Shown here piece after piece: positions 2 to 13,564 of a stretch of 37,930 bases of DNA. This DNA is from Gemmatimonadota bacterium (GTDB taxonomy: Bacteria > Gemmatimonadota > Gemmatimonadetes > Gemmatimonadales > Gemmatimonadaceae). The notes beneath the pieces were generated by a model that saw nothing but the letters and a program-made list of their open reading frames with translations, had not been told where the DNA came from and did not search any database. A program made the position numbers and the translations under genes. How positions within the stretch are numbered: position 1 is the stretch's first letter; each line of letters opens with the position of its first letter. The stretch covers positions 1 to 37,930 of the forward strand of contig JAEKKK010000115.1 in assembly GCA_019510405.1 (NCBI GenBank). Reading direction: 5' to 3'.

Positions 2-490
2 TTCGGTGGTGGTTTCGGCGGCGGCGGACGTCGTGGCGGCGGCGGCGGGGACGGCCCGGCCCCACCTCCGCGCGGTGCGCCGACGAACGCTGCCTCGGGC
101 GCGGCTGCCGCACCGGGCACACCCGGCGCCGCGGGCGCACCGGGCGCACCGGGCGCACCGGGCGCACCGGGCGGAGCAGGCAATCGTGGCCCCGGGGGCG
201 GCCGGCAGATCAACTTCGTCTCCCCGAACGAGCTCCCCGACTATCGTCCCGCGTTCGCCAACGGCTCGGTGCGCGCCGATGCGGAAGGCAAGCTCTGGGT
301 GCGCGTCATCCCGACCAAGCCGCTCACCGGCGGTCCGGAATACGACGTGATCGATCGCGAGGGGAAGCTGGTCGACCGCGTCACCCTGCCGCGCGGCACC
401 ACGATCGCCGGATTCGGCACGGGCGGCATCGTGTACCTCGGCGTGCGCGACCAGGCCGGCGTCCACGTCGTGCGCGCACGGGAGAAGTAG
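2..490 (+). CDS. Secreted propeller-like protein, C-terminal part (5' end outside the window)
   Basis: The reading frame is open from the first bases and ends at TAG 488-490, so only the last 162 residues are present. The visible part starts with a glycine/arginine-rich stretch, continues into a collagen-like run of GAP triplets, and ends in an ordered domain of about 85 residues containing LPDYRPAF, GKLWVRV, GPEYDVIDR and GTTIAGFG. This domain is clearly paralogous to the end of the protein at 4503-5849, with about 70% identity by eye. That full-length relative has a signal peptide and strand-rich repeats reminiscent of six-bladed propellers, so this protein is probably also exported. No catalytic residues are recognisable. 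It lies directly upstream of a TonB-dependent receptor, with its relative on the other side, which suggests a shared envelope function. The exact role is unknown. Confidence 0.8.
   Translation, partial: FGGGFGGGGRRGGGGGDGPAPPPRGAPTNAASGAAAAPGTPGAAGAPGAPGAPGAPGGAGNRGPGGGRQINFVSPNELPDYRPAFANGSVRADAEGKLWVRVIPTKPLTGGPEYDVIDREGKLVDRVTLPRGTTIAGFGTGGIVYLGVRDQAGVHVVRAREK
133..168 (+). repeat. Four tandem copies of a 9-bp unit (GGGCGCACC) inside the coding region
   Basis: Four exact copies run head to tail, followed by a degenerate fifth (GGGCGGAGC). In frame they encode Gly-Ala-Pro triplets, a collagen-like linker. Being a multiple of three, copy-number changes would lengthen or shorten the linker without a frameshift. 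Confidence 0.9.
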
Positions 491-550: not shown

Positions 551-572
551 ACGGCCACCATTCGGTGGCCGT
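551..572 (+). terminator. Hairpin, probable terminator of the upstream gene
   Basis: Arms of 9 bp (551-559 and 564-572, core GGCCACC/GGTGGCC) close a 4-nt loop. The following TCGTGCTTC is only weakly T-rich. It sits between the stop at 490 and the receptor start at 682. Confidence 0.55.
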
Positions 573-681
573 TCGTGCTTCCCACCCCTGCGCATCCGCC
601 GACGGGCACCCTTTTCCCCTCGTGCGTGTCGAACCGTGCACGCAGGTGAACGGCCAGGATTCACAACCGACTCTCCCCACC

Positions 682-3600
682 GTGCCTCGTCTTCACAGCG
701 CTGCGCTGCTTGCCGCGCTCGTCCTCCTTTTCTGCCTGCCGCGCGCCGCGGCCGCCCAGCAGCTCGACGTCATCCGGGGACAGGTCGTCAACCCCGAAGC
801 GCAGCCGATCGAGAACGCCACCGTGACCGCGACCTCCGTCGGCGGTGGCGTCAATCGCTCCGCGCGCACCGACCGGAACGGCCGCTTCACGATCACCTTC
901 CCCGGCGGAGAGGGCGATTACTTCGTCAACTTCACCGCCATCGGCTACGCGCCGCGGCGCTTCGAGGTGCGTCGCACGGCAGACCAGGACATCCTCGTCG
1001 CCGACGCGCAGCTCCAGCGCATGGTCATGCTCGACACGATGCGCTCCGTCGCACAGCGCGGTCGTGTCGGCCGGAACGACAACCAGCCCGATCTCAGCGG
1101 CACCGAGCAGTCGATCCAGAACGACGCCGTCGCCGCCGGCCAGCAGGGTGACCTGAACGCGATGGCCGCGACGATCCCGGGCGTCACACCGATCACCGAC
1201 GCCAACGGCGACCCGGCCGGCTTCTCCGTGCTCGGGCTCTCCGCCGACCAGAACAACACGACGCTCAACGGCGCCAGCTTCGGGGCGTCCAACATCCCGC
1301 GCGATGCGCAGGTCACCTCGTCGCTCGTCACGACGCCGTACGACGTCAGTCGCGGCGGCTTCAGCGGCGCGCAGTTCTCGCTCCGCACCTTCGGCAGCTC
1401 GAACTTCATCCGCCGCAACAACAGCCTGAACTTCGACGCTCCCTCGCTCCAGTGGACCGATCGCGCCGCGCGCTCCCTCGGCCAGCAGTACACCAACGTC
1501 TCCCTCGGCGGACTGCTCGCCGGCCCGATCGTGTTCGACAAGGCGTTTTACAACCTCTCGTATCAGCTCGGGCGTCGCTCCAACGATCTGCGCACGTTGC
1601 TCAATACCGACGCGGCCGGCCTCCAAGCCTCCGGTGTTGCCGCCGATTCCGTCTCACGCCTGCTGGCGATCGCCGCGGCGCAGCGCATCCCCGTCAGCAC
1701 GGGCAACGCGCTGCGCAGCGATCGGCTGTCGGATCAGGGCTCGTTGTTCGGCACGATCGATCTCACCCCGCCGAGCTCCACGAGCGGCACGACGATGAAC
1801 CTCACGCTCAACGGCAACTGGAATCGCCAGACGCCCGCGGGCAACCTCGTCACCGAGCTGCCGGCGCACGGCGGCGATCGCACGAGCTGGAACGCGGGCG
1901 CGCAGGCGCGCCACACGTCGTACGTGAAGAACGTCGTGCTCAGCGAGACCACCCTCAACCTGAACGGAAGCAGGAACTACGGGAGCCCGTACCTCACCCT
2001 CCCGAACGGCAGCGTGCTCGTGAACTCCCTCTTCGCCGATGGGACGAGCGGTGTGCGCACCCTCGGCATCGGCGGCAACGGATTCCTGGGCACGAGCAGC
2101 AGCAATCTCGTCACCGAAGCGATCAATCAGCTCTCCTGGTTCAGCCGGAACAACAAGCATCGCCTCAAGCTGAGCAGCGAGCTGCGTCGCGAGAGCTACG
2201 ATCAGGACCAGACCACCAACGCCAACGGTACCTTCACCTATCTCTCCCTCGACGACCTCGCCGCGAACCGGCCGGCGTCGTACTCGCGCACGCTGCTGCC
2301 GCGCGTCCAGAGCGCGAGCCAGGTCACCGGCGCGCTCTCGCTCGGCGACTCGTATCGCCGCACGAACAACCTTCAGGTGCAGTACGGCGTGCGGCTCGAC
2401 GCCAACCGCTTCTCCGCCACGCCGGCGTACAACTCCGAGCTCGAGCGGTTGTTCGGTGAGCGCAACGACCGTGCGCCGAACCGCCTCTACGCGAGCCCGC
2501 GCATCGGCTTCTCGTGGAACTACGGTACCGCGCCGACCATCTCCGGCTTCGAGGGCGCCATGCGCGGACCACGCGCCGTCGTGCGCGGCGGCATCGGCGT
2601 CTTCCAGGGACTGCCTGCCGCCACCTCCATCGGTTCGGCCATCGACAACACCGGGCTCGCCGGCGCGCTCCAGCAGATCACCTGCGTCGGGGCCGCGGTC
2701 CCGGTGCCCGATTGGGCCGCCTACGCCGCCAATCCCTCGGCGATCCCCTCGCGCTGCGCCGACGGCAGCACGGGGAGCGTCTTCGCCAGCGATGCGCCGA
2801 ACGCCACGCTCTTCGCGCGGGACTTCGCCGCGCCCCGCAGCGTGCGATCGAATCTCAACTGGAACGGCCCGATCCTCGGCAACCGCTTCAACGCGACCGT
2901 GGATCTCACCTGGTCGCGCAACCTGAACCAGCCCAGCACGGTCGATCGCAACTTCCAGCCGACGCAGCGGTTCACGCTGGCGGATGAAGGCAACCGCCCC
3001 GTCTACGCGCAGCCGGCGAGCATCGTGCCGTCGACGGGCGCCATCGCCTCGCGCGACGCGCGCGTGAGCCAGCAGTTCAATCGGGTGAGCGAGCTGCGGA
3101 GCGATTTGCGCAGCGAGACGAAGCAGCTTCGCCTCGGGATCTTCCCCGCGACGTTCAACCAGCAGCTCACCTGGTCGCTCAACTACACGCTCGCCGACGT
3201 TCGTGAGCAGTATCGCGGCTTCCAGAGCACCGGCGGCAATCCGCTCGCCGTGGACTGGTCGCGCAGCGGTGGCGAGTCACGCCACCAGATCTCGTACACC
3301 CTCGGCTACAACTTCTTCGATGCCGTGCGCGTGAACTGGTTCGGCCAGTTCCGCAGCGGCACGCCGTTCACGCCGACCATCTCCGCCGACGTGAACGGCG
3401 ACGGCTACGCGAACGATCGCGCGTTCGTGTTCGACCCCGCCCGCGCGAGCGATCCCGCGGTCGCCGGCGCGATGCGCTCCCTCCTCGAGAGCGGCTCGGG
3501 ACCCGCGAAGGACTGCCTCGCCCGTCAGCTTGGCGCCATTGCCGCACGAAATTCCTGTCGTGGCCCATGGACGTCGAACGCGAACCTGAGCATCTCGCTC

Positions 3601-4446
3601 AATCCGATGAAGGTGCGGCTCCCGCAGCGCGCCACGCTGAGCTTCTCCGTGTCGAACCCGCTCGGCGCGGCCGATCTCCTGCTGCACGGCCAGAACAACC
3701 TGCACGGCTGGGGGCAGTTCACCTTCGCCGATCCCACGCTGCTCTACGTGCGCGGCTTCGACTCCACGACGAAGCGCTACAAGTACGAGGTCAATCCGCG
3801 CTTCGGCAGCACCAACCCGCAGTTCAACTCGTTCCGCGCGCCCGTCACGCTCACCATGCAGCTTCGCGTCGACGTCGGTCCCACGCGCGAACGTCAGCAG
3901 CTCACCCAGCAGCTCGACCGCGGGCGCACGCGACAGGGACAGCGTACCCCCGAGTTCCAGCTCAAGGCGATGTACGGCACCGGCGGCATCCTCAATCCGA
4001 TCGGGCAGATCCTGCGGCAGAGCGACACGCTGGGCCTCACCGGCCCGCAGGCCGATAGCCTCGCGACGATGAATCGTGCCTACACCGTATCGCTCGACAG
4101 CATCTGGAATCCCGTCGCGAAGTATCTCGCTGCGCTCCCGGAGCGGTACGATCAGGGCGAGGCGTACGGGCACTACACCGAGGCACGCAAGGCATCGGTC
4201 GATCTGCTCGTCAAGCTCGCGCCCGTCGTTCGCTCGCTTCTGACCGACGAGCAGCGCCGCAAGCTTCCCGCGATCGTCGCCAGCTATCTCGACACCCGCT
4301 ATCTCGCCGGCATCCGAAGCGGCACCGCGGGCAGCGCCGCCGCGGGCGCTTTCGGCGGCGGCTTCATCGGCGGCGGTGGCCCGGTCTTCATCGGTGGCGG
4401 TGGTGGCGGTGGTGGCGGCGGCAACGTCGTCATCATCCGCAACTGA
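682..4446 (+). CDS. TonB-dependent receptor (Oar-like) with a carboxypeptidase-regulatory domain and a C-terminal LTxxQ domain
   Basis: This is an outer-membrane receptor of 1254 residues. The GTG start at 682 is chosen because it gives a clean signal peptide (RLHSAALLAALVLLFCLP, cleavage near AAAAQQ); the upstream ATG at 565 would add an implausible extension. Order of parts: carboxypeptidase-regulatory-like fold (about residues 28-110, VIRGQVVNPEAQPIENATV), plug (about 140-240), then a long strand-rich barrel with alternating aromatic segments up to about residue 1075. The barrel is followed by about 100 helical residues with two LTxxQ motifs (LTGPQ at 1119-1123, LTDEQ at 1187-1191), as in the periplasmic Spy/CpxP family, and a glycine-rich tail. 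TonB receptors usually end with the last strand, so this extension is unusual. The substrate is unknown. The paralogous propeller genes on both sides may act with it. Confidence 0.9.
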   Translation: MPRLHSAALLAALVLLFCLPRAAAAQQLDVIRGQVVNPEAQPIENATVTATSVGGGVNRSARTDRNGRFTITFPGGEGDYFVNFTAIGYAPRRFEVRRTADQDILVADAQLQRMVMLDTMRSVAQRGRVGRNDNQPDLSGTEQSIQNDAVAAGQQGDLNAMAATIPGVTPITDANGDPAGFSVLGLSADQNNTTLNGASFGASNIPRDAQVTSSLVTTPYDVSRGGFSGAQFSLRTFGSSNFIRRNNSLNFDAPSLQWTDRAARSLGQQYTNVSLGGLLAGPIVFDKAFYNLSYQLGRRSNDLRTLLNTDAAGLQASGVAADSVSRLLAIAAAQRIPVSTGNALRSDRLSDQGSLFGTIDLTPPSSTSGTTMNLTLNGNWNRQTPAGNLVTELPAHGGDRTSWNAGAQARHTSYVKNVVLSETTLNLNGSRNYGSPYLTLPNGSVLVNSLFADGTSGVRTLGIGGNGFLGTSSSNLVTEAINQLSWFSRNNKHRLKLSSELRRESYDQDQTTNANGTFTYLSLDDLAANRPASYSRTLLPRVQSASQVTGALSLGDSYRRTNNLQVQYGVRLDANRFSATPAYNSELERLFGERNDRAPNRLYASPRIGFSWNYGTAPTISGFEGAMRGPRAVVRGGIGVFQGLPAATSIGSAIDNTGLAGALQQITCVGAAVPVPDWAAYAANPSAIPSRCADGSTGSVFASDAPNATLFARDFAAPRSVRSNLNWNGPILGNRFNATVDLTWSRNLNQPSTVDRNFQPTQRFTLADEGNRPVYAQPASIVPSTGAIASRDARVSQQFNRVSELRSDLRSETKQLRLGIFPATFNQQLTWSLNYTLADVREQYRGFQSTGGNPLAVDWSRSGGESRHQISYTLGYNFFDAVRVNWFGQFRSGTPFTPTISADVNGDGYANDRAFVFDPARASDPAVAGAMRSLLESGSGPAKDCLARQLGAIAARNSCRGPWTSNANLSISLNPMKVRLPQRATLSFSVSNPLGAADLLLHGQNNLHGWGQFTFADPTLLYVRGFDSTTKRYKYEVNPRFGSTNPQFNSFRAPVTLTMQLRVDVGPTRERQQLTQQLDRGRTRQGQRTPEFQLKAMYGTGGILNPIGQILRQSDTLGLTGPQADSLATMNRAYTVSLDSIWNPVAKYLAALPERYDQGEAYGHYTEARKASVDLLVKLAPVVRSLLTDEQRRKLPAIVASYLDTRYLAGIRSGTAGSAAAGAFGGGFIGGGGPVFIGGGGGGGGGGNVVIIRN

Positions 4447-4502: not shown

Positions 4503-5849
4503 ATGCGCATCCTCGCCTCTACGCTCGTCGTCGCGACCGTCTTCGCGTCCACCGCGAATGCCCAGCAGTCGCGACCCCCGCTCCGGCATCTCGGTGCCGC
4601 CGTCGCCACCTCCGATGCGCTTGGCGCCGTCGCCGCCATTCAGGCGCTCCCGGGCGGCAAGCTGCTCGTGAATGACCCCTCGCGCCGGCAGCTCCTGCTG
4701 CTCGACTCGGCCATGAAGGTGATCGCCGTCGTCGCCGATACGACGCCCGCGACGAAGGGCGCCTATGGCACGCGAGGCGGCGGGCTGCTCCCCTTCCGCG
4801 GCGACTCCGCGCTCTTCGTCGATCCCAACTCGCTCTCGATGCTCGTCATCGATCCGGCGGGGAAGATCGCGCGCATCATGGCCGCGCCGCGCGCCAACGA
4901 CGTCATCTTCCTCCTCGGCGGCCCGCAGGGGAATCCGGGGTTCGACGCGAAAGGGCGGCTCGTCTATCGCGCCCAGAGCTTCGGCGCGCCGCGCGGCGGC
5001 ATGGCCGGTCAGCCGATGCAGCCGCCGGTCATTCCCGACAGCGTTCCGCTCGTGCGCTACGATCTGCTCACGCGCCGGCTCGACACGGCCGCGTTCGTGC
5101 GTTCGCCCGCGCCGAAGTTCAACGTCGTGCAGAACGAGCGCGGTATGTCGATGACCAGCACCATCAACCCGCTCCCCGAGGTCGACGACTGGGCCGTCCT
5201 CCCCGATGGCACGATCGCGATCCTGCGCAAGGACTATCACGTCGACTACATCGACGCGAACGGTCAGAAGACCTCGGCGCCGAAGATCCCCTTCGACTGG
5301 CAGCGTCTCTCCGATTCCGCCAAGGCGGCCATCATCGACTCCGCGAAGGCGCGTATGGCGCGCGCGCGCGCGGGTGGCCCGGGTGGTGGCTTCGTCGTCA
5401 CGCGCGAAGGCCCCGGCGGCAATGACGTCGTTGCGGGCGGCGGCGGCCCCGGTGCGGGTCCCGGTGCCGGCGCGCCAGTGATCGTGTTCCGCACCGAGCG
5501 CGCCGAAGGCGGCCCGCCGATGCGCGGCGGCGCGCCGACGGGCGATCGTCCGGTGGGCCCGCCGCCCCTCTCGTTCGTCGAGCCCTCCGAGCTGCCCGAC
5601 TATCAGCCCGCATTCACGACCGGCTCCGTCCGCGCCGACCGCGAGGGCAAGCTCTGGGTCCGCACCTTCTCCGCACTCCAGTCGAACGCCGGCCCCGAGT
5701 ACGACGTGATCGACCGGACGGGCAAGCTCGTCGACCGCGTCGCGCTTCCTGCGGGCACGACGATCGCCGGCTTCGGCCCCGGTGGCACCGTCTACCTCGG
5801 CGTGCGCGACGCCTCCGGCACGCACATCACCCGCGCGCACGAGCGCTGA
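4503..5849 (+). CDS. Secreted propeller-like protein with a glycine/proline-rich insert
   Basis: The protein has 448 residues and begins with a signal peptide (MRILASTLVVATVFASTANAQ). Repeated strand-like segments (GGKLLVNDPSRRQLLLLDS, SLSMLVIDPAGKI, DDWAVLPDGTIAILRKD, REGKLWVRTF, YDVIDRTGKLVDRV) resemble NHL or six-bladed propeller blades. This fold assignment is inference. A low-complexity Gly/Pro region (about residues 285-355) interrupts the fold. The last 85 residues match the C-terminus of the partial gene at 2-490. It follows the TonB receptor by 56 bp on the same strand, so co-transcription is likely. No enzyme motif is seen. It may be a periplasmic or surface partner of the receptor. 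Confidence 0.8.
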   Translation: MRILASTLVVATVFASTANAQQSRPPLRHLGAAVATSDALGAVAAIQALPGGKLLVNDPSRRQLLLLDSAMKVIAVVADTTPATKGAYGTRGGGLLPFRGDSALFVDPNSLSMLVIDPAGKIARIMAAPRANDVIFLLGGPQGNPGFDAKGRLVYRAQSFGAPRGGMAGQPMQPPVIPDSVPLVRYDLLTRRLDTAAFVRSPAPKFNVVQNERGMSMTSTINPLPEVDDWAVLPDGTIAILRKDYHVDYIDANGQKTSAPKIPFDWQRLSDSAKAAIIDSAKARMARARAGGPGGGFVVTREGPGGNDVVAGGGGPGAGPGAGAPVIVFRTERAEGGPPMRGGAPTGDRPVGPPPLSFVEPSELPDYQPAFTTGSVRADREGKLWVRTFSALQSNAGPEYDVIDRTGKLVDRVALPAGTTIAGFGPGGTVYLGVRDASGTHITRAHER

Positions 5850-6038: not shown

Positions 6039-7283
6039 ATGACCGCTCGCCTCGTTCCGCCCGTCGTCGCCGCACTCGGCGTCGCGCTCCTCATCGCCTG
6101 CGCCGGCGCCACCGAGCCGCGGCCTGGCGACCCGAGCCCCGTGCTCGAGGCGTTGCCGCGGGCGCTGAGCCCGGGCGAGCAGAAGATCATCGCCGCCAAC
6201 AACGACTTCTCCTTCTCGCTCTTCCGCCAGCTCGGCGCCGACAATGCGGACAGCAACGTCTTCGTCTCGCCGCTCAGCGCCTCGATGGCGCTCGGCATGG
6301 CGATGAACGGCGCGAGCGGACCGACCTTCGACCAGATGCGAGCCACCCTCGGATTCGGCGCGGCGTCGGAGTCCGAGATCGACCAGGGTTACAAGTCGCT
6401 CATCACGCTGCTTCGCACGCTCGATCCGGCCGTCGACTTCCGCATCGCGAACTCGATCTGGGCCCGCGATGGTTTCCCCATCAAGCCGGCGTTCCTCGAT
6501 GCGGGCCGCACCTGGTTCGACGCGCAGGCCGCCACGCTCGATTTCGCGAGTCCTGGCGCCGTGAAGTCCATCAATGATTGGGTGAGCACGGCGACGACAG
6601 GGAAGATCCCGATCATCGTCGATCAGATCCGCCCCGATGAGGTGATGTTCCTCATCAACGCCATCTACTTCAAGGGAAGCTGGCGCGCGAAGTTCGATCC
6701 GGCCCTCACTGCCGATGCACCATTTCATGGGATCGCCGGCGATCAGCCGGCGAAGCTGATGCATCGCGAGGGGACGATCCGCTACCTGCAGACGCCCACC
6801 TTCTCCGCCGTGGATCTCCCGTACGGCAACAGCGCCTACTCGATGAGCGTCGTCCTGCCGAGCGCCGGCCAGAGCGTCGACGCCGTGCTCGCGTCGCTGC
6901 AGGCCGACGCCTGGTCGGCGTGGACCTCGCAGTTCCGCGACACGGAGCTCGATCTCTATCTCCCGCGTCTCGAGCTCACCTGGGGGCGCATGCTCATTCC
7001 CGAGCTGCAGGCGCTCGGCATGCGCGCCGCGTTCCAGGCGGAGAGCGCCGACTTCAGCCGGATGTCCTCCGTCGGTCTCTTCATCAGCACCGTGAAACAG
7101 AAGACGTACGTGAAGGTGAACGAGGAGGGGACGGAAGCGGCCGCCGCCACGAGCGTGGGGATGACGGTGACGTCGGCTCCCCTCCGCACGCTGTTCCGCG
7201 TCGACCGGCCCTACGTCTTCGTCATTCGCGAGCGCCTCTCGGGGACCATCCTCTTCCTCGGCGCGATCCGGCGGATGCCCTGA
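6039..7283 (+). CDS. Serpin-family protease inhibitor, predicted lipoprotein
   Basis: The protein has 414 residues. A lipoprotein signal precedes Cys21 (LLIACAG), so the inhibitor is probably anchored in the envelope. The rest matches the serpin fold at normal length: NDFSFSLFRQLG, NVFVSPLSASMALGMAMNGA, NSIWARDGF, VMFLINAIYFKGSW, and the C-terminal signature VDRPYVFVIRERLSGTILFLG. The reactive-loop hinge NEEGTEAAAATS (residues 361-372) has the small residues typical of inhibitory serpins, so it likely traps a protease. Counting from the hinge Gly364 as P15 puts P1-P1' at Thr378-Ser379. The loop is about two residues longer than in alpha-1-antitrypsin, so this is uncertain. The target protease is unknown. 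Bacterial serpins are patchily distributed and are often discussed as acquired genes, but base composition here matches the neighbours. Confidence 0.92.
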   Translation: MTARLVPPVVAALGVALLIACAGATEPRPGDPSPVLEALPRALSPGEQKIIAANNDFSFSLFRQLGADNADSNVFVSPLSASMALGMAMNGASGPTFDQMRATLGFGAASESEIDQGYKSLITLLRTLDPAVDFRIANSIWARDGFPIKPAFLDAGRTWFDAQAATLDFASPGAVKSINDWVSTATTGKIPIIVDQIRPDEVMFLINAIYFKGSWRAKFDPALTADAPFHGIAGDQPAKLMHREGTIRYLQTPTFSAVDLPYGNSAYSMSVVLPSAGQSVDAVLASLQADAWSAWTSQFRDTELDLYLPRLELTWGRMLIPELQALGMRAAFQAESADFSRMSSVGLFISTVKQKTYVKVNEEGTEAAAATSVGMTVTSAPLRTLFRVDRPYVFVIRERLSGTILFLGAIRRMP

Positions 7284-7687: not shown

Positions 7688-9991
7688 ATGCTTCCGATCA
7701 TTCGCACGATCCGTAAGATCGTTCCCCCGGTGCTCGTCGGCCTGCAGGCCATGGTGCTCGCGTCATGTGAGCCGGTTCAGCCGCTGCTCGTGCAGCAACC
7801 CTCGTTCTCAGCGGACAGCCTCGATCCGAGTAGATACACCAGCCAGTACGGAGTGCACTACATCACGATCACGACGACGGATTCCACGCTCACCACGGGA
7901 CAGCAGGTGCAGGCCACCGGCATCCCGCGCGACTACTATGGGAATCCGCTCATGCAGGCCCCGGTGAGCTGGTCGATCTCGCCGACCAACGTCGCGACGA
8001 TCTCCTCAACTGGACTCATTACCGGCGGCTCGACCTCCGGCACCGCGACGGTCTCCGCGACCGCGGATGGCGTCACCCGCAGCATGACCATCACCAACAC
8101 GGCCAGCACGTCCTCGCAGTCGGGCGGCGCGCCAGTGCACATGATCTCGATCAGCGCCAACGCGACGCAGCTCAAGATCGGTCAGGCCACGCAGGTGTCC
8201 GGCGTCGTCAGAGACGTCAACGGCACGCCGATCGCCAATGTGCCGATCACCTGGACGACGTCGCCCGTCACCGTCGCCACTGCGGTGACCAACTCGGCGA
8301 CCGCCGGCACCGTCACCGGCAAGGGCGTCGGTACCGCCATCGTCTACGCCAAGGCGGACACCGTAACGCGCCAGATCACGATCACCGTGATCGACTCCGC
8401 GACCACCTCGGGCGGCAGCACGACGCCCGTGCCGCCGGGCGCGACGGGCGGATCGTACGGCAGCGCCACTGCCGCGACGCTCCCGCAGGCCACCGTGAAC
8501 ACGGCGTATCCCAGCATGTCGCGCCAGGTGCGCGTTCCGGCCGGGGCCAACCTGCAGACGTACATCAACAACGCGCAGCCGGGCGACGAGCTTCTCCTCG
8601 CGCCGGGTGCCACCTACACGGGCCAGTTCACCCTCCCGAACAAGGGGAGCAGCTCGCAGTGGATCGTCATCCGCACCGATCTCTCGGATGCCACGATCGG
8701 CTATCCGGGAACGCGCATGACGCCGTCACGCGCCGCGTCGGCGAACCTGGCGAAGATCATGGGCAACACCTGGTTCGGCCCGATCAGCACCGACCTTGCC
8801 GCAAATCACTACCGCTTCACCGGTGTGGAGTTCGGCTCGGCCGTGACGGGAGATCTGAACGCCATCGTCCGCTTCGGCGACGCATCGAGCGCGCAGAACA
8901 CGATCGCTTCGATCGCCAACAACCTGATCCTCGATCGCGTCTACATCCACGCAACGCCGACCCAGAGCGTCCGGCGTTGCGTGCTGGCCAACAGCGCCAG
9001 CACCGCCGTCATCGACTCGTGGCTCGGCGACTGCCACAGCAGCTACGGTGATTCGCAGGCCTTCGTCAGCTGGAACGGCTCCGGTCCCTTCCTCATTCAG
9101 AACAGCCACCTCGAGGCAGGTCACGAGGTCGTGATGTTCGGCGGCGGCAGCGCGACGATCCAGAATCTCTCCCCCTCCGACATCACCATCCGCGGGAACC
9201 ACATCATGCGTCCCACCGCGTGGAAGGGTGTCTGGCAGGCGAAGAACCTCATCGAGTCGAAGCACGCCAAGCGCATGCTCATCGAAGGGAACGTGATCGA
9301 GGGTGAGTGGCAGGACGCCCAGGTCGGCTTCGCCTTCGTGCTCAAGTCCGAGAACCAGAACGGCGACAACCCGTGGACCCAGACGGCAGACGTCACGATC
9401 CGCTACAACAAGATCCGGAACGTCGGCAGCGTGTTCAATCTCGCCGCCAACCCGGCGGCCACCACGGCGATTCCCGCGGCGCGGTTCGTCATCACGGACA
9501 ACGTCATCGAGAACGTCGGGTCGAGCCCCTACACCGGCGAGGGACGCACCTTCCAGCTCCTGAGCGGTCTCTCCGACGTCGTTCTGATGCACAACACCGT
9601 GACGAGCGGCGGCGGGACGGCCCCGGCAACGATCTACTACGGCGGCGGCGGAATCTCGCGGCTCGTCATCCACTCGAACATCCTCCAGCACGGCAACGTC
9701 GGTGTGAAGGGCGACGCCACGGGGGAGGGAACAGCCTCGCTCACGACGTTCTCGCCGGGATACCTCTACACGAACAACGCGATGGTGAACGGCGGCACGG
9801 CGAGCGCCTATCCGGCGAACAACTACTTCCCGGGCGCGCTGAGCAACCTCGGCTTCATCAACCTGTCGGGCGGCAACTACCAGCTCTCGACGTCGAGCAC
9901 CTACCTGAACAAGGGCTACGACGGCCGCGATATTGGCGCTGACATCAACACCGTCAACTCGAAGACGAACAACGTGGTGGTCGGACCGTAA
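7688..9991 (+). CDS. Lipoprotein with two Big_2 Ig-like domains and a right-handed beta-helix
   Basis: The protein has 767 residues. The signal ends in a lipobox with Cys27 (MVLASCEP). Two bacterial Ig-like (Big_2) domains follow, at about residues 55-140 and 150-240; both show the family pattern VSWSISPTNVATIS / ITWTTSPVTVATA and end in a G-T-A-x-V strand. A Ser/Thr/Gly linker leads to a beta-helix region (about 280-760) beginning VPAGANLQTYINNAQPGDEL, with many short N- and V-rich rungs (SDITIRGNHIM, RFVITDNVIENVG, DVVLMHNTVTSGG). This layout is typical of surface proteins that bind or cleave polysaccharides, such as pectate- or chondroitin-lyase-like folds. I see no assured catalytic triad, so the substrate is open. 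A strong hairpin terminator follows. Confidence 0.85.
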   Translation: MLPIIRTIRKIVPPVLVGLQAMVLASCEPVQPLLVQQPSFSADSLDPSRYTSQYGVHYITITTTDSTLTTGQQVQATGIPRDYYGNPLMQAPVSWSISPTNVATISSTGLITGGSTSGTATVSATADGVTRSMTITNTASTSSQSGGAPVHMISISANATQLKIGQATQVSGVVRDVNGTPIANVPITWTTSPVTVATAVTNSATAGTVTGKGVGTAIVYAKADTVTRQITITVIDSATTSGGSTTPVPPGATGGSYGSATAATLPQATVNTAYPSMSRQVRVPAGANLQTYINNAQPGDELLLAPGATYTGQFTLPNKGSSSQWIVIRTDLSDATIGYPGTRMTPSRAASANLAKIMGNTWFGPISTDLAANHYRFTGVEFGSAVTGDLNAIVRFGDASSAQNTIASIANNLILDRVYIHATPTQSVRRCVLANSASTAVIDSWLGDCHSSYGDSQAFVSWNGSGPFLIQNSHLEAGHEVVMFGGGSATIQNLSPSDITIRGNHIMRPTAWKGVWQAKNLIESKHAKRMLIEGNVIEGEWQDAQVGFAFVLKSENQNGDNPWTQTADVTIRYNKIRNVGSVFNLAANPAATTAIPAARFVITDNVIENVGSSPYTGEGRTFQLLSGLSDVVLMHNTVTSGGGTAPATIYYGGGGISRLVIHSNILQHGNVGVKGDATGEGTASLTTFSPGYLYTNNAMVNGGTASAYPANNYFPGALSNLGFINLSGGNYQLSTSSTYLNKGYDGRDIGADINTVNSKTNNVVVGP

Positions 9992-10103: not shown

Positions 10104-12521
10104 CTACTCGCCGTACGGGATCCAGATGTTCTTCACCTGCGTCGCCTCGCGCAGGAAGGGCCGGCCCTCGCCCTCGCGCGAGTCGATCCACGTGCGCGGC
10201 GCGAGCTCGCACCACGTGCGCTTCATGTTCCCCGCCGACGCGAGCTCCACCGCCTTCACGCCGTCGCGCGAGCCGAAGTACCACATCGCGTCCACGTCGT
10301 CGTGCTCGGCGAGCGTCTTCGCGAGCGTGTCCTTCGCGCCAGTCACGATGTTGATCACTCCTGCCGGCACGTCCGACGTCTCCAGCACCTGATAGAAGTC
10401 GGTCGCGGCCAGCGGCGCACGCTCCGACGGGATGGCCACCACGGTGTTCCCGACGCAGATCGCCGGCGCGACGAGCGATACGAGCCCGAGGAGCGGATGC
10501 TCGTCGGGGCAGGCGATCCCGATCACGCCGAGCGGCTCGTTCATCGCCAGCGCGACACCGCGCAGCGGCACCTGATGGACCTGCCCGTCGTACTTGTCCG
10601 CCCACGCACCGTACGTGAACAGCCGGCGCACACTCGCTTCCACTTCCGCCGCGCCGTCGCCACCGGTCAGCGCGCTGATCCGCCGTCCCAGCTCGTCGGC
10701 GCGTGCAGCGAGATTCTCGGCGATGTAATAGAGGATCTGCGCGCGATTGTGGCCCGTCGCCTTGCTCCAGCTTCCCGACGCGGCATGTGCTGCTTCCACC
10801 GCGTTGCGCAGATCCTTCCGGTTCCCCTCGCCGACCTCGCCGAGCACGCGCCCATCGGCCCCGGCAATGCGAATCGAATACCCCGAATCGGGACGGACCT
10901 GCTTGCCGCCGATGAACAGCTTCGGCGTCCGATCGACGAGCGGCGCGCCGCGATCCGGATCGTCGAGCTCCGCGGCGCGGCGCACCGCGCGCGCCTGCGC
11001 GCCGCGCGCCGTCTTCGCGGCAGCGCGCGCGGCGCGACCGTTCTCGCGCGCCGGCACTGCGCGGTCCGGCGAGAGATACTCCCACATTCCCTCGCGTCCA
11101 CCTTCCCGTCCGAATCCCGACTCGCGGTAGCCGCCGAACCCCGCCGCGGCATCGAACAGGTTCGTCGAGTTGATCCAGACCACGCCCGCCTTGATCTTCG
11201 GCGCGATGTCGAGCGCGAGATTGATCGACTCGCTCCACACCGACGCCGCGAGCCCGTACGGCGTGTTGTTCGCCAGCGCCACCGCCTCGCTCGGTGTGCG
11301 GAACGTCATCGCCACGAGCACGGGTCCGAAGATCTCGACCTGCGCGATCGTCGACGACGGCTGCACGTTGGTGAACAGCGTGGGCGGATAGAAGCAGCCG
11401 TCCTGCGGGCACGCCCAGCTCGGCTGCCACATCTCGGCGCCTTCGGCCGTGCCGGCCGCCACGAGGGAACGGATGCGCTCGAGCTGCACCGGCGCGACGA
11501 TCGCGCCCATGTCCACCGCCTTGTCGAGTGGCGAGCCGAGTCGGAGCGTCTCCATCCGTGCGCGCAGCTTCGCGATGAGCCGCTCACTCACCCCTTCCTG
11601 CACGAGCAGGCGCGAGCCGGCGCAGCAGACCTGACCCTGATTGAACCAGATCGCGTCGACGACGCCCTCGACGACGGAATCGAGGTCCGCGTCCTCGAAC
11701 ACGATGAACGGCGACTTCCCGCCCAGCTCGAGCGAGAGCTTCTTCCCACTCCCCGCCGTCGCCTTGCGAATGATGCGGCCGACCTCCGTGCTTCCCGTGA
11801 ACGCGATCTTGTCGATGCCATCGTGCGCCACGATGGCGGCGCCCGTGTCCCCGTCTCCCGTGACGACGTTCAGCACGCCCGGCGGAAGTCCGGCCGCATC
11901 CGCGAGCTCGGCGAACAGCAGCGCGGTGAGGGGCGTGAACTCGGCGGGCTTGATGACGATCGTGCATCCCGCGGCGAGCGCGGGCGCGACCTTCCACGCG
12001 AACATGAGCAGGGGGAAGTTCCACGGGATGATCTGACCCACGACGCCCGCGGCGTGGTACCCGGCGAACTCGCTGTCGAGCAGCTGCGCCCAGCCGGCGT
12101 GATGATAGAAGTGGCGCGCCACGAGGGGCACGTCGATGTCGCGCGTCTCCCGGATGCTCTTGCCGTTGTCCATGCTCTCGAGCACGGCGAGCAGGCGCGA
12201 GTTGCGCTGCACGGTGCGCGCGAGCGCGTACAGGTAGCGCGCGCGGCCATGTCCGCCCAGCGCTTCCCACGCGGGCAGCGCCTTGCGAGCGGCTCTCACC
12301 GCGGCATCGACGTCCTTCTTGCTGCCTTGCGACACCTGCGCGATGCGCGCGCCCGTCGCCGGATTGCTCACGTCGAAGAGCCCCGCCGGCTTCGTCCATC
12401 CCCCGGCGATGAAGTGCCCGAAGCGCGCGCCGTGAAGAGCGAGCCAGTCGCGCGCCGCCGCGTCGCCTTCCGGCGCCGGCCCGTATTCCATGGTGTCGAA
12501 GATCTCGCGGACGGATGTCAT
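10104..12521 (-). CDS. Two-domain aldehyde dehydrogenase, ALDH16-like
   Basis: It oxidises an aldehyde to the acid with NAD(P)+. The ATG at 12521 (MTSVREIF) is preferred over the longer frame, which runs into deoC; the product is 805 residues. Residues about 30-500 are a complete ALDH: GQIIPWNFPLLMF, FTGSTEVGR, LELGGKSPF, and GQVCCAGSR with catalytic Cys299. Residues about 530-805 form a second, shorter ALDH-like domain (LFIGGKQVRPDSGYSIRIAG to WIPYGE) without a recognisable GQxC site. A full domain plus a degenerate one is the hallmark of ALDH16, which in bacteria can retain the catalytic Cys. It starts 2 bp after the deoC stop, so the two are almost certainly cotranslated. Acetaldehyde released by DeoC is the natural substrate guess. 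Confidence 0.9.
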   Translation of the reverse strand: MTSVREIFDTMEYGPAPEGDAAARDWLALHGARFGHFIAGGWTKPAGLFDVSNPATGARIAQVSQGSKKDVDAAVRAARKALPAWEALGGHGRARYLYALARTVQRNSRLLAVLESMDNGKSIRETRDIDVPLVARHFYHHAGWAQLLDSEFAGYHAAGVVGQIIPWNFPLLMFAWKVAPALAAGCTIVIKPAEFTPLTALLFAELADAAGLPPGVLNVVTGDGDTGAAIVAHDGIDKIAFTGSTEVGRIIRKATAGSGKKLSLELGGKSPFIVFEDADLDSVVEGVVDAIWFNQGQVCCAGSRLLVQEGVSERLIAKLRARMETLRLGSPLDKAVDMGAIVAPVQLERIRSLVAAGTAEGAEMWQPSWACPQDGCFYPPTLFTNVQPSSTIAQVEIFGPVLVAMTFRTPSEAVALANNTPYGLAASVWSESINLALDIAPKIKAGVVWINSTNLFDAAAGFGGYRESGFGREGGREGMWEYLSPDRAVPARENGRAARAAAKTARGAQARAVRRAAELDDPDRGAPLVDRTPKLFIGGKQVRPDSGYSIRIAGADGRVLGEVGEGNRKDLRNAVEAAHAASGSWSKATGHNRAQILYYIAENLAARADELGRRISALTGGDGAAEVEASVRRLFTYGAWADKYDGQVHQVPLRGVALAMNEPLGVIGIACPDEHPLLGLVSLVAPAICVGNTVVAIPSERAPLAATDFYQVLETSDVPAGVINIVTGAKDTLAKTLAEHDDVDAMWYFGSRDGVKAVELASAGNMKRTWCELAPRTWIDSREGEGRPFLREATQVKNIWIPYGE

Positions 12522-12523
12522 GC

Positions 12524-13564
12524 TCACACCATGGGGTGACGGTGCGCCGCCGAGTAGCGCCCGGTGACGAAGTGCTCGAGCTGCCGCTCGATGTCGGTGA
12601 GCAGCGCGCTCGCGCCGAAGCGGAACAGATCCGGCTTGAGCCAACGGTTCCCGAGCTCGTCCTTCATGAGGTAGAGATACTCCAGTGCGTTCTTCGCGCT
12701 GCGGATCCCTCCCGCCGGCTTGTAGCCGACGGCGTAGCCGGTGGCCTCGTGGTACTCGCGGATCATGCGCACCATCACGAGGCTGAACGGAAGCGTCGCG
12801 TTGATCCCTTCCTTGCCTGTGCTGGTCTTGATGAAGTCCGCGCCCGCCATCATGGCGACCATGCTCGCGCGCGCGACGTTGCCGAGCGTCGCGAGCTCGC
12901 CGGTGGCGAGGATGGCCTTCATGTGCGCGTCGCCGCACGCCTCACGGAACATCCGCACCTCGTCGTACAGCGCCTGCCAGTTGCCCGTGAGCACGTGGCC
13001 GCGCGTGATGACGATGTCGATCTCCTGCGCGCCGGCAGCCACCGATGCGCGAATCTCGCGCACGCGCTCCTCGAGTGGGCTGAGTCCGGCAGGAAAGCCC
13101 GTGCTCACGGCGGCGACTGGGATGCCGGTGCCGCGCAGCGCCTCCACGGCGGTGGCGACGAGCGAGTGGTAGACACACACCGCACCCGTCGTGAGTCGCA
13201 GGTCCGCGACGCCGAGCGCGTCCACGAGATCCTGGCGGAGCGGATGCGCCGCCTTGGCGCACAGCCGCCGCACGTTCCCGGGCGTGTCGTCGCCGGCCAG
13301 CGTGGTGAGGTCGATGAGCGTGATCGCGCGGAGCAGCCATGCCGCCTGCCACTCCTTCTTGACCGTCCGGCGCGTCGGAATGGTGGCGGCGCGCCGCTCG
13401 ACGGCGCTGCGATTCACGCGGAGGGCACGGACGATGTCGAGGTCGAGGGCGGTCCCCGGATTCCGCTCGACGTGATCGTCGGTGAGGCGCGGCCGCGCGC
13501 GCTCCTCGCGTGCGGAACGGTCGGAGGTGGCGAGCCGGAGCGCCGGTTCGGTCTTGGCCTGCAT
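12524..13564 (-). CDS. deoC: Deoxyribose-phosphate aldolase
   Basis: A class I aldolase that splits 2-deoxyribose-5-phosphate into acetaldehyde and glyceraldehyde-3-phosphate. The ATG at 13564 (MQAKTEPALRL) gives 346 residues, normal for the longer DeoC type; an in-frame start 25 codons upstream is possible but has no support. Active-site residues are visible: Asp183 in EIDIVI, the Schiff-base Lys246 in DFIKTSTGK, and Lys282 in GYKPAGGIR. The first 60 residues are a charged extension. Downstream by 2 bp is the ALDH16-like gene, which could remove the acetaldehyde. Upstream and divergent by 111 bp is a hybrid sensor kinase. Confidence 0.95.
   Translation of the reverse strand: MQAKTEPALRLATSDRSAREERARPRLTDDHVERNPGTALDLDIVRALRVNRSAVERRAATIPTRRTVKKEWQAAWLLRAITLIDLTTLAGDDTPGNVRRLCAKAAHPLRQDLVDALGVADLRLTTGAVCVYHSLVATAVEALRGTGIPVAAVSTGFPAGLSPLEERVREIRASVAAGAQEIDIVITRGHVLTGNWQALYDEVRMFREACGDAHMKAILATGELATLGNVARASMVAMMAGADFIKTSTGKEGINATLPFSLVMVRMIREYHEATGYAVGYKPAGGIRSAKNALEYLYLMKDELGNRWLKPDLFRFGASALLTDIERQLEHFVTGRYSAAHRHPMV

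Follow-up and report, generated by a model that had tools for sequence, protein, structure and literature searches.

An Oar-type TonB-dependent receptor of Gemmatimonadota with a predicted C-terminal domain related to the LTXXQ family

In the window (the whole stretch of 37,930 nucleotides analysed here, from a Gemmatimonadota contig), an Oar-type TonB-dependent receptor carries an LTXXQ-related domain at its C-terminus (682..4446, + strand). We are highly confident of this architecture and of the identity of its two parts, the receptor and, behind it, a member of the Spy/CpxP (LTXXQ) superfamily. We did not find the fusion described in the open-access literature on LTXXQ together with TonB-dependent receptors, on Gemmatimonadota receptors, or on C-terminal extensions. 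This agrees with the earlier note on this DNA, made from the sequence alone, which knew of no such described architecture.

The frame is open throughout 565..4446 (+ strand), with GTG codons at 565 and 682. The second of these is the likely start of the receptor; by eye, translation from GTG 682 begins with a clean, plain signal peptide (VPRLHSAALLAALVLLFCLPRAAAAQQ). All residue numbers given here are counted from GTG 565, and are lower by 39 when counted from GTG 682. The identification as a TonB-dependent receptor, already made in the earlier note, is borne out by two Pfam matches over their cut-offs. The first is CarboxypepD_reg (PF13620, 56.9 bits, cut-off 32.3, E 2.8e-15), which covers the N-terminal extension (NTE; residues 70-150, 772..1014, + strand). 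The second is OMP_b-brl_4 (PF25183, 62.1 bits, cut-off 30, E 4.6e-17), which covers residues 420-1011 of the beta-barrel (1822..3879, + strand); the final strand of this barrel, FRAPVTLTMQLRVDVG, lies at residues ~1091-1105. Between the two, a plug-like region (residues 176-245, 1090..1299, + strand) matches PF07715 below the cut-off (21.0 vs 23.9 bits, E 4.8e-4), but at the position expected of a plug. A TonB box candidate was seen only by eye, in the LDTMRSVAQR / LDAVKVTA region (residues 151-175). The Pfam scan returned no STN domain in the receptor, and a whole-receptor sequence search of the PDB found no receptor relative.

Beyond the last barrel strand the receptor continues for ~188 residues, close to the ~180 first estimated. 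Homologous receptors of other genomes that lack the extension end directly after the final strand, as seen when they are aligned to window residues ~1091-1105; one (L127) ends in ...NPYQIQAGLAYKF (...GLAYKF) and another (L126) in ...DPYQFQIGLRFEH (...GLRFEH). In the window, the strand is followed by a conserved linker with a short helix (PTRERQQLTQQLDRGR..., 3880..3984, + strand), found in the alignment of relatives and in the AlphaFold2 model. Then comes the LTXXQ-related helical hairpin domain at ~residues 1141-1256 (3985..4332, + strand), placed by the alignment, the model (hairpin pLDDT ~90 or more) and profile comparison. Its first LTxxQ motif, LTGPQ (residues 1158-1162, 4036..4050, + strand), caps the first long helix. 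The second, LTDEQ (residues 1226-1230, 4240..4254, + strand), stands 68 residues further on, after the second long helix, and is followed by an invariant proline at residue 1235. The protein ends with a Gly-rich tail (4333..4443, + strand) that runs out in a short hydrophobic stretch with an arginine (VVIIRN). The earlier note had recognised the two motifs, their distance of 68 and the glycine tail, and all three hold; its motif positions (1119-1123 and 1187-1191) differ from ours because they were counted from GTG 682. The domain starts nearer 3960-3985 than at the 4000 of its interval (4000-4446). Since both ends of TonB-dependent receptor barrels face the periplasm, the extension is presumably periplasmic, and the extra domain would hang at the periplasmic mouth of the barrel.

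We conclude from profiles and bridging receptors that the domain is LTXXQ-related by homology, although it should not be called a Spy chaperone. The window protein itself has no match to PF07813 (LTXXQ; cut-off 24.3 bits) in the Pfam scan. Sibling receptors pass this cut-off in direct scans (32.8 and 26.8 bits), as do several ORFs of 1259-1440 residues in which the match is C-terminal, behind the barrel. In hhalign comparisons, the window clade matched the domains of Pfam-positive receptors at 97.6% and free-standing Gemmatimonadota LTXXQ proteins at 92.6% (E 5e-7), while the reversed controls for these two matches reached 3.3% at most, and comparisons with reversed profiles of the same sets all stayed at or below 6.4%. 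When the free-standing set was compared with E. coli proteins, Spy matched at 96.9% and CpxP at 83.6%, whereas none of 12 unrelated proteins exceeded 0.4%. A direct comparison of the window clade with single-sequence Spy gave 4.6%, which is not significant, but ranked first of 15 and was in the right register; likewise, Spy was the best match of the family profile in the PDB, though a weak one (E 0.076). The Spy/CpxP-like domain claimed in the earlier note thus stands as homology at the profile level, but not as a PF07813 match of the window protein. Two free-standing Gemmatimonadota proteins (L076 and L080) have four or three LTxxQ motifs, apparently making up two LTXXQ units per chain.

The motifs are also strongly conserved. 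In 51 aligned relatives, the first motif keeps L1158 in all 51 and Q1162 in 49, and the second keeps L1226 in 47, T1227 in 45 and Q1230 in 51; P1235 is present in 51/51. Other residues of the domain (N1170-R1171, W1181 and P1183, along with P1235) are conserved clade-specifically. The motif pair is found in 66 of 75 distinct receptors, spaced by 68 residues in 59 of them, by 67 in three, by 69 in three and by 72 in one. Conservation of the motifs in orthologues, a check proposed in the earlier note, is therefore seen in the aligned relatives, and extends to distant paralogues. The spacing itself had been taken as that of Spy and CpxP; having two motifs ~70 apart is indeed shared, but 68 is specific to the receptors, and Spy and CpxP have 73. 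These data also bear on the possibility that the extension is an unrelated helical sequence with two coincidental LTxxQ strings. Such a coincidence could explain why the window protein, taken alone, has no Pfam match in the extension and why Foldseek was uninformative (see below). It does not sit well with near-invariant motifs at a fixed spacing, with Pfam-positive siblings, or with profile comparisons whose reversed controls are clean, and we consider it exceedingly improbable.

Within the window clade, mean pairwise identity is 58.0% for the domain, 57.6% for the barrel and 44.7% for the Gly-rich tail. The domain is thus conserved as much as the barrel, and is therefore under constraint. 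The arginine in the hydrophobic end of the tail (VVIIRN) is kept in 46/51 relatives.

To see how far the fusion extends, we can consider the sampled Gemmatimonadota genomes, of which 205/298 (about two thirds) have matches to the domain profile. Among the matches listed, the best ones fall almost entirely in ORFs of 1230-1400 residues. The source genome (77% complete, 327 contigs) has two further such receptors, 72% and 35% identical over the receptor, and receptors from other families of the class (L128, L129 and L130) also carry the domain. Together with the PF07813-positive siblings, this shows the fusion to be recurrent in Gemmatimonadota, the other point on which the earlier note had wanted a check. 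Rough counts in four genomes gave 26 to 82 Plug matches each but 3 to 5 matches to the domain, which is thus confined to a minor fraction of the receptors. Two label changes are required in a tree that combines fused and free domains, and the tree is compatible with one origin; the fusion probably arose in a single event, early in Gemmatimonadota. A scan of named genomes, in which other phyla were hardly sampled, found six close relatives, all of them Gemmatimonadota, and a tblastn search with a sibling domain against plasmids returned Gemmatirosa only.

The receptor gene has a tightly linked neighbour. Starting 56 nt downstream, on the same strand, is a gene for a secreted, beta-propeller-like protein with a Gly-rich insert (4503..5849, + strand). 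The protein has a signal peptide and, by eye, no lipobox cysteine, and it matches no Pfam family in the Pfam scan. Its AlphaFold2 model is poor (pLDDT 47), but the Foldseek list obtained with it consists nearly entirely of NHL, SMP-30 and related propellers, including BtuG. Based on this list and on the strand pattern, the partner is likely a beta-propeller despite the low confidence of the model. A homologue of the partner lies downstream on the same strand in 48/48 window-clade receptors that have 700 nt or more of sequence behind them (46/46 by script, and 48/48 once L015 and L025 were placed in the window clade by eye), compared to 0/17 LTXXQ receptors of other subfamilies. No other neighbour is conserved in the 12-19 kb neighbourhoods of 11 loci (ten genomes and the window).

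The window begins (2..490, + strand) with the part of a second, paralogous partner gene that encodes the C-terminus. Identity to the partner is ~69% over residues 356-448, and the receptor-partner pair is therefore probably tandemly repeated here. Two such pairs do occur in tandem in another genome (G005:C53, L035). We also note that the window starts within the Gly-rich insert of this second propeller gene (2-490), and that another contig of the source genome (C78; G000:C78:1-967) ends inside the same propeller gene, behind a paralogous receptor. The window contig and C78 may adjoin, with the break between them caused by the repeat; together they would hold receptor-partner pairs in tandem, like those of G005:C53.

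Some further observations concern the partner and the genes that follow it. The Gly-rich insert of the partner holds APVIVFR, similar to the VVIIRN of the receptor tail; a strict regular expression finds this in 4/17 partners, and looser forms are seen by eye in most. Shortly after the receptor-partner pair, the window encodes a serpin (6039-7283; PF00079, E 1e-102) with a signal peptide and an apparent lipobox (LLIACAG), which none of the conserved positions in the ten other genomes shares. Another secreted protein (7688-9991) has Ig-like repeats (Big_1/Big_2 below cut-off), behind which a long part of it matches no Pfam family. A 944-residue ORF on the minus strand (10104-12938, - strand) has Aldedh (PF00171) matches in its C-terminal part and looks by eye like two aldehyde dehydrogenase modules in one frame.

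The AlphaFold2 model of the domain, for which seven sequences were used as input, has a mean pLDDT of 85.5, and blocks along the hairpin reach 89-97. Two long helices are predicted to fold into a hairpin, and each LTxxQ motif lies at a turn, as the structure-prediction check of the earlier note had called for; in segment numbering, the helices span 55-84 and 92-120, with LTGPQ at 53-57 and LTDEQ at 121-125. A Foldseek search of the model against the PDB gave no significant match, as is common for helical hairpins. Among the targets judged relatable, only CnrX had a TM-score over 0.5 (0.52 by target length, with a non-significant E of 9.8).

CnrX is a sensor, as are CpxP and ZraP of the same superfamily, and its place as the best relatable target, although not significant, would suit a role in signalling, of the kind that the earlier note had also raised. 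The LTXXQ hairpin would then tell a periplasmic sensor whether the receptor is occupied, in the way that CpxP acts on CpxA, or CnrX on an anti-sigma factor. It would correspond to the STN domain that FecA-type transducers have at the other end, the N-terminus. However, the receptor has neither the STN domain nor the linked sigma and anti-sigma genes of such transducers, and its conserved neighbours in the 11 loci of 12-19 kb include no gene for a sigma factor, an anti-sigma factor or a kinase; a signalling partner may be encoded further away. This weakens the case for signalling, which we regard as unlikely. Metal binding, where a ZraP/CnrX-type domain would buffer or sense a metal that is imported, has even less in its favour: the 115 residues of the domain include one His, one Met and no Cys, and no such residue is conserved through the alignment of relatives. 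Even considering that the superfamily has metal-binding members, and that one sibling receptor has a weak Metal_resist match (PF13801, E 0.022), we find a metal-related function very hard to credit.

What, then, might the domain do? Spy-type chaperones form a dimeric cradle with ATP-independent chaperone activity, and Spy binds polypeptides. We tentatively propose that the domain, tethered at the periplasmic mouth of the channel, serves for docking or holding, a mechanism we consider possible rather than probable. There it would bind a polypeptide on the surface of its Spy-type hairpin. The best candidates are the linked propeller protein and any protein or peptide that passes through the receptor as cargo, and this partner or cargo would be held beside the plug and NTE rather than diffusing away. 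The proposal draws on the polypeptide binding of Spy, on an Oar receptor that is needed for PopC secretion, and on BtuB and BtuG, likewise a pair of receptor and propeller. The net charge of the domain speaks against it; with 13 K+R and 11 D+E the domain is near neutral, unlike the basic cradle of Spy. For the architecture and this mechanism taken together, we put the chances at about even. A more elaborate version, in which receptor and partner form a two-protein machine, seems to us improbable; here, the Spy-type domain would be a dedicated periplasmic chaperone or dock, loading the Oar-type channel with the co-encoded propeller or with some protein cargo and amounting to TBDT-based secretion or capture with a built-in chaperone.

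As the propeller neighbour is absent from other LTXXQ receptor subfamilies, the domain cannot in general serve to bind this partner. The same absence leaves room for an intramolecular role, where the domain would pack beneath the barrel, plug and NTE of its receptor, either as a gate or as a built-in help in assembling the barrel, and would have no separate client. Such a role would fit a domain that is as conserved as the barrel, that most sampled genomes have retained, and that also occurs in subfamilies lacking the propeller. However, the related receptors L126 and L127 do without the domain, and the Gly-rich stretches found on either side of it in many members suggest a mobile tether. We think an intramolecular role somewhat unlikely, and retain docking or holding as our working proposal.

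When extra domains are discussed for TonB-dependent receptors, they are usually N-terminal ones; with a conserved C-terminal LTXXQ-related domain, this large class gains a second periplasmic module. The propeller gene, strictly paired with the receptor, also provides a concrete candidate partner, and a possible link to protein handling bears on how Oar-type receptors help to move proteins across the outer membrane.

Like Spy and CpxP (PF07813), the window domain has two LTxxQ motifs, located at the turns of a long helical hairpin (predicted here), and a presumed periplasmic placement. Unlike Spy and CpxP, which are free, soluble periplasmic proteins with a spacing of 73, it is fused to an outer-membrane receptor in one frame, has an almost fixed spacing of 68 and lies under Pfam detection in the window sequence. 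CnrX and ZraP are periplasmic metal sensors and helical-hairpin proteins of the domain's own superfamily; the window domain differs from them in having no conserved metal ligands and no sensor partner gene nearby. The closest parallel for the receptor is Oar of Myxococcus xanthus, without which the protease PopC is not secreted (PMC6434023). Both receptors have a CarboxypepD_reg-type NTE and a TBDT-like barrel, the window receptor with a plug-like region between them, and to this the window receptor adds a C-terminal periplasmic domain; a TBDT survey in the same paper sorts receptors by their N-terminal architecture, and its available part reports no C-terminal domain (PMC6434023). The gene pair, finally, resembles BtuB, which works with the beta-propeller BtuG (PMC10404256), in that a receptor gene is paired with a beta-propeller protein (predicted here). 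Unlike BtuG, which is a surface lipoprotein, the window partner lacks a lipobox cysteine and instead has a plain signal peptide and a Gly-rich insert.
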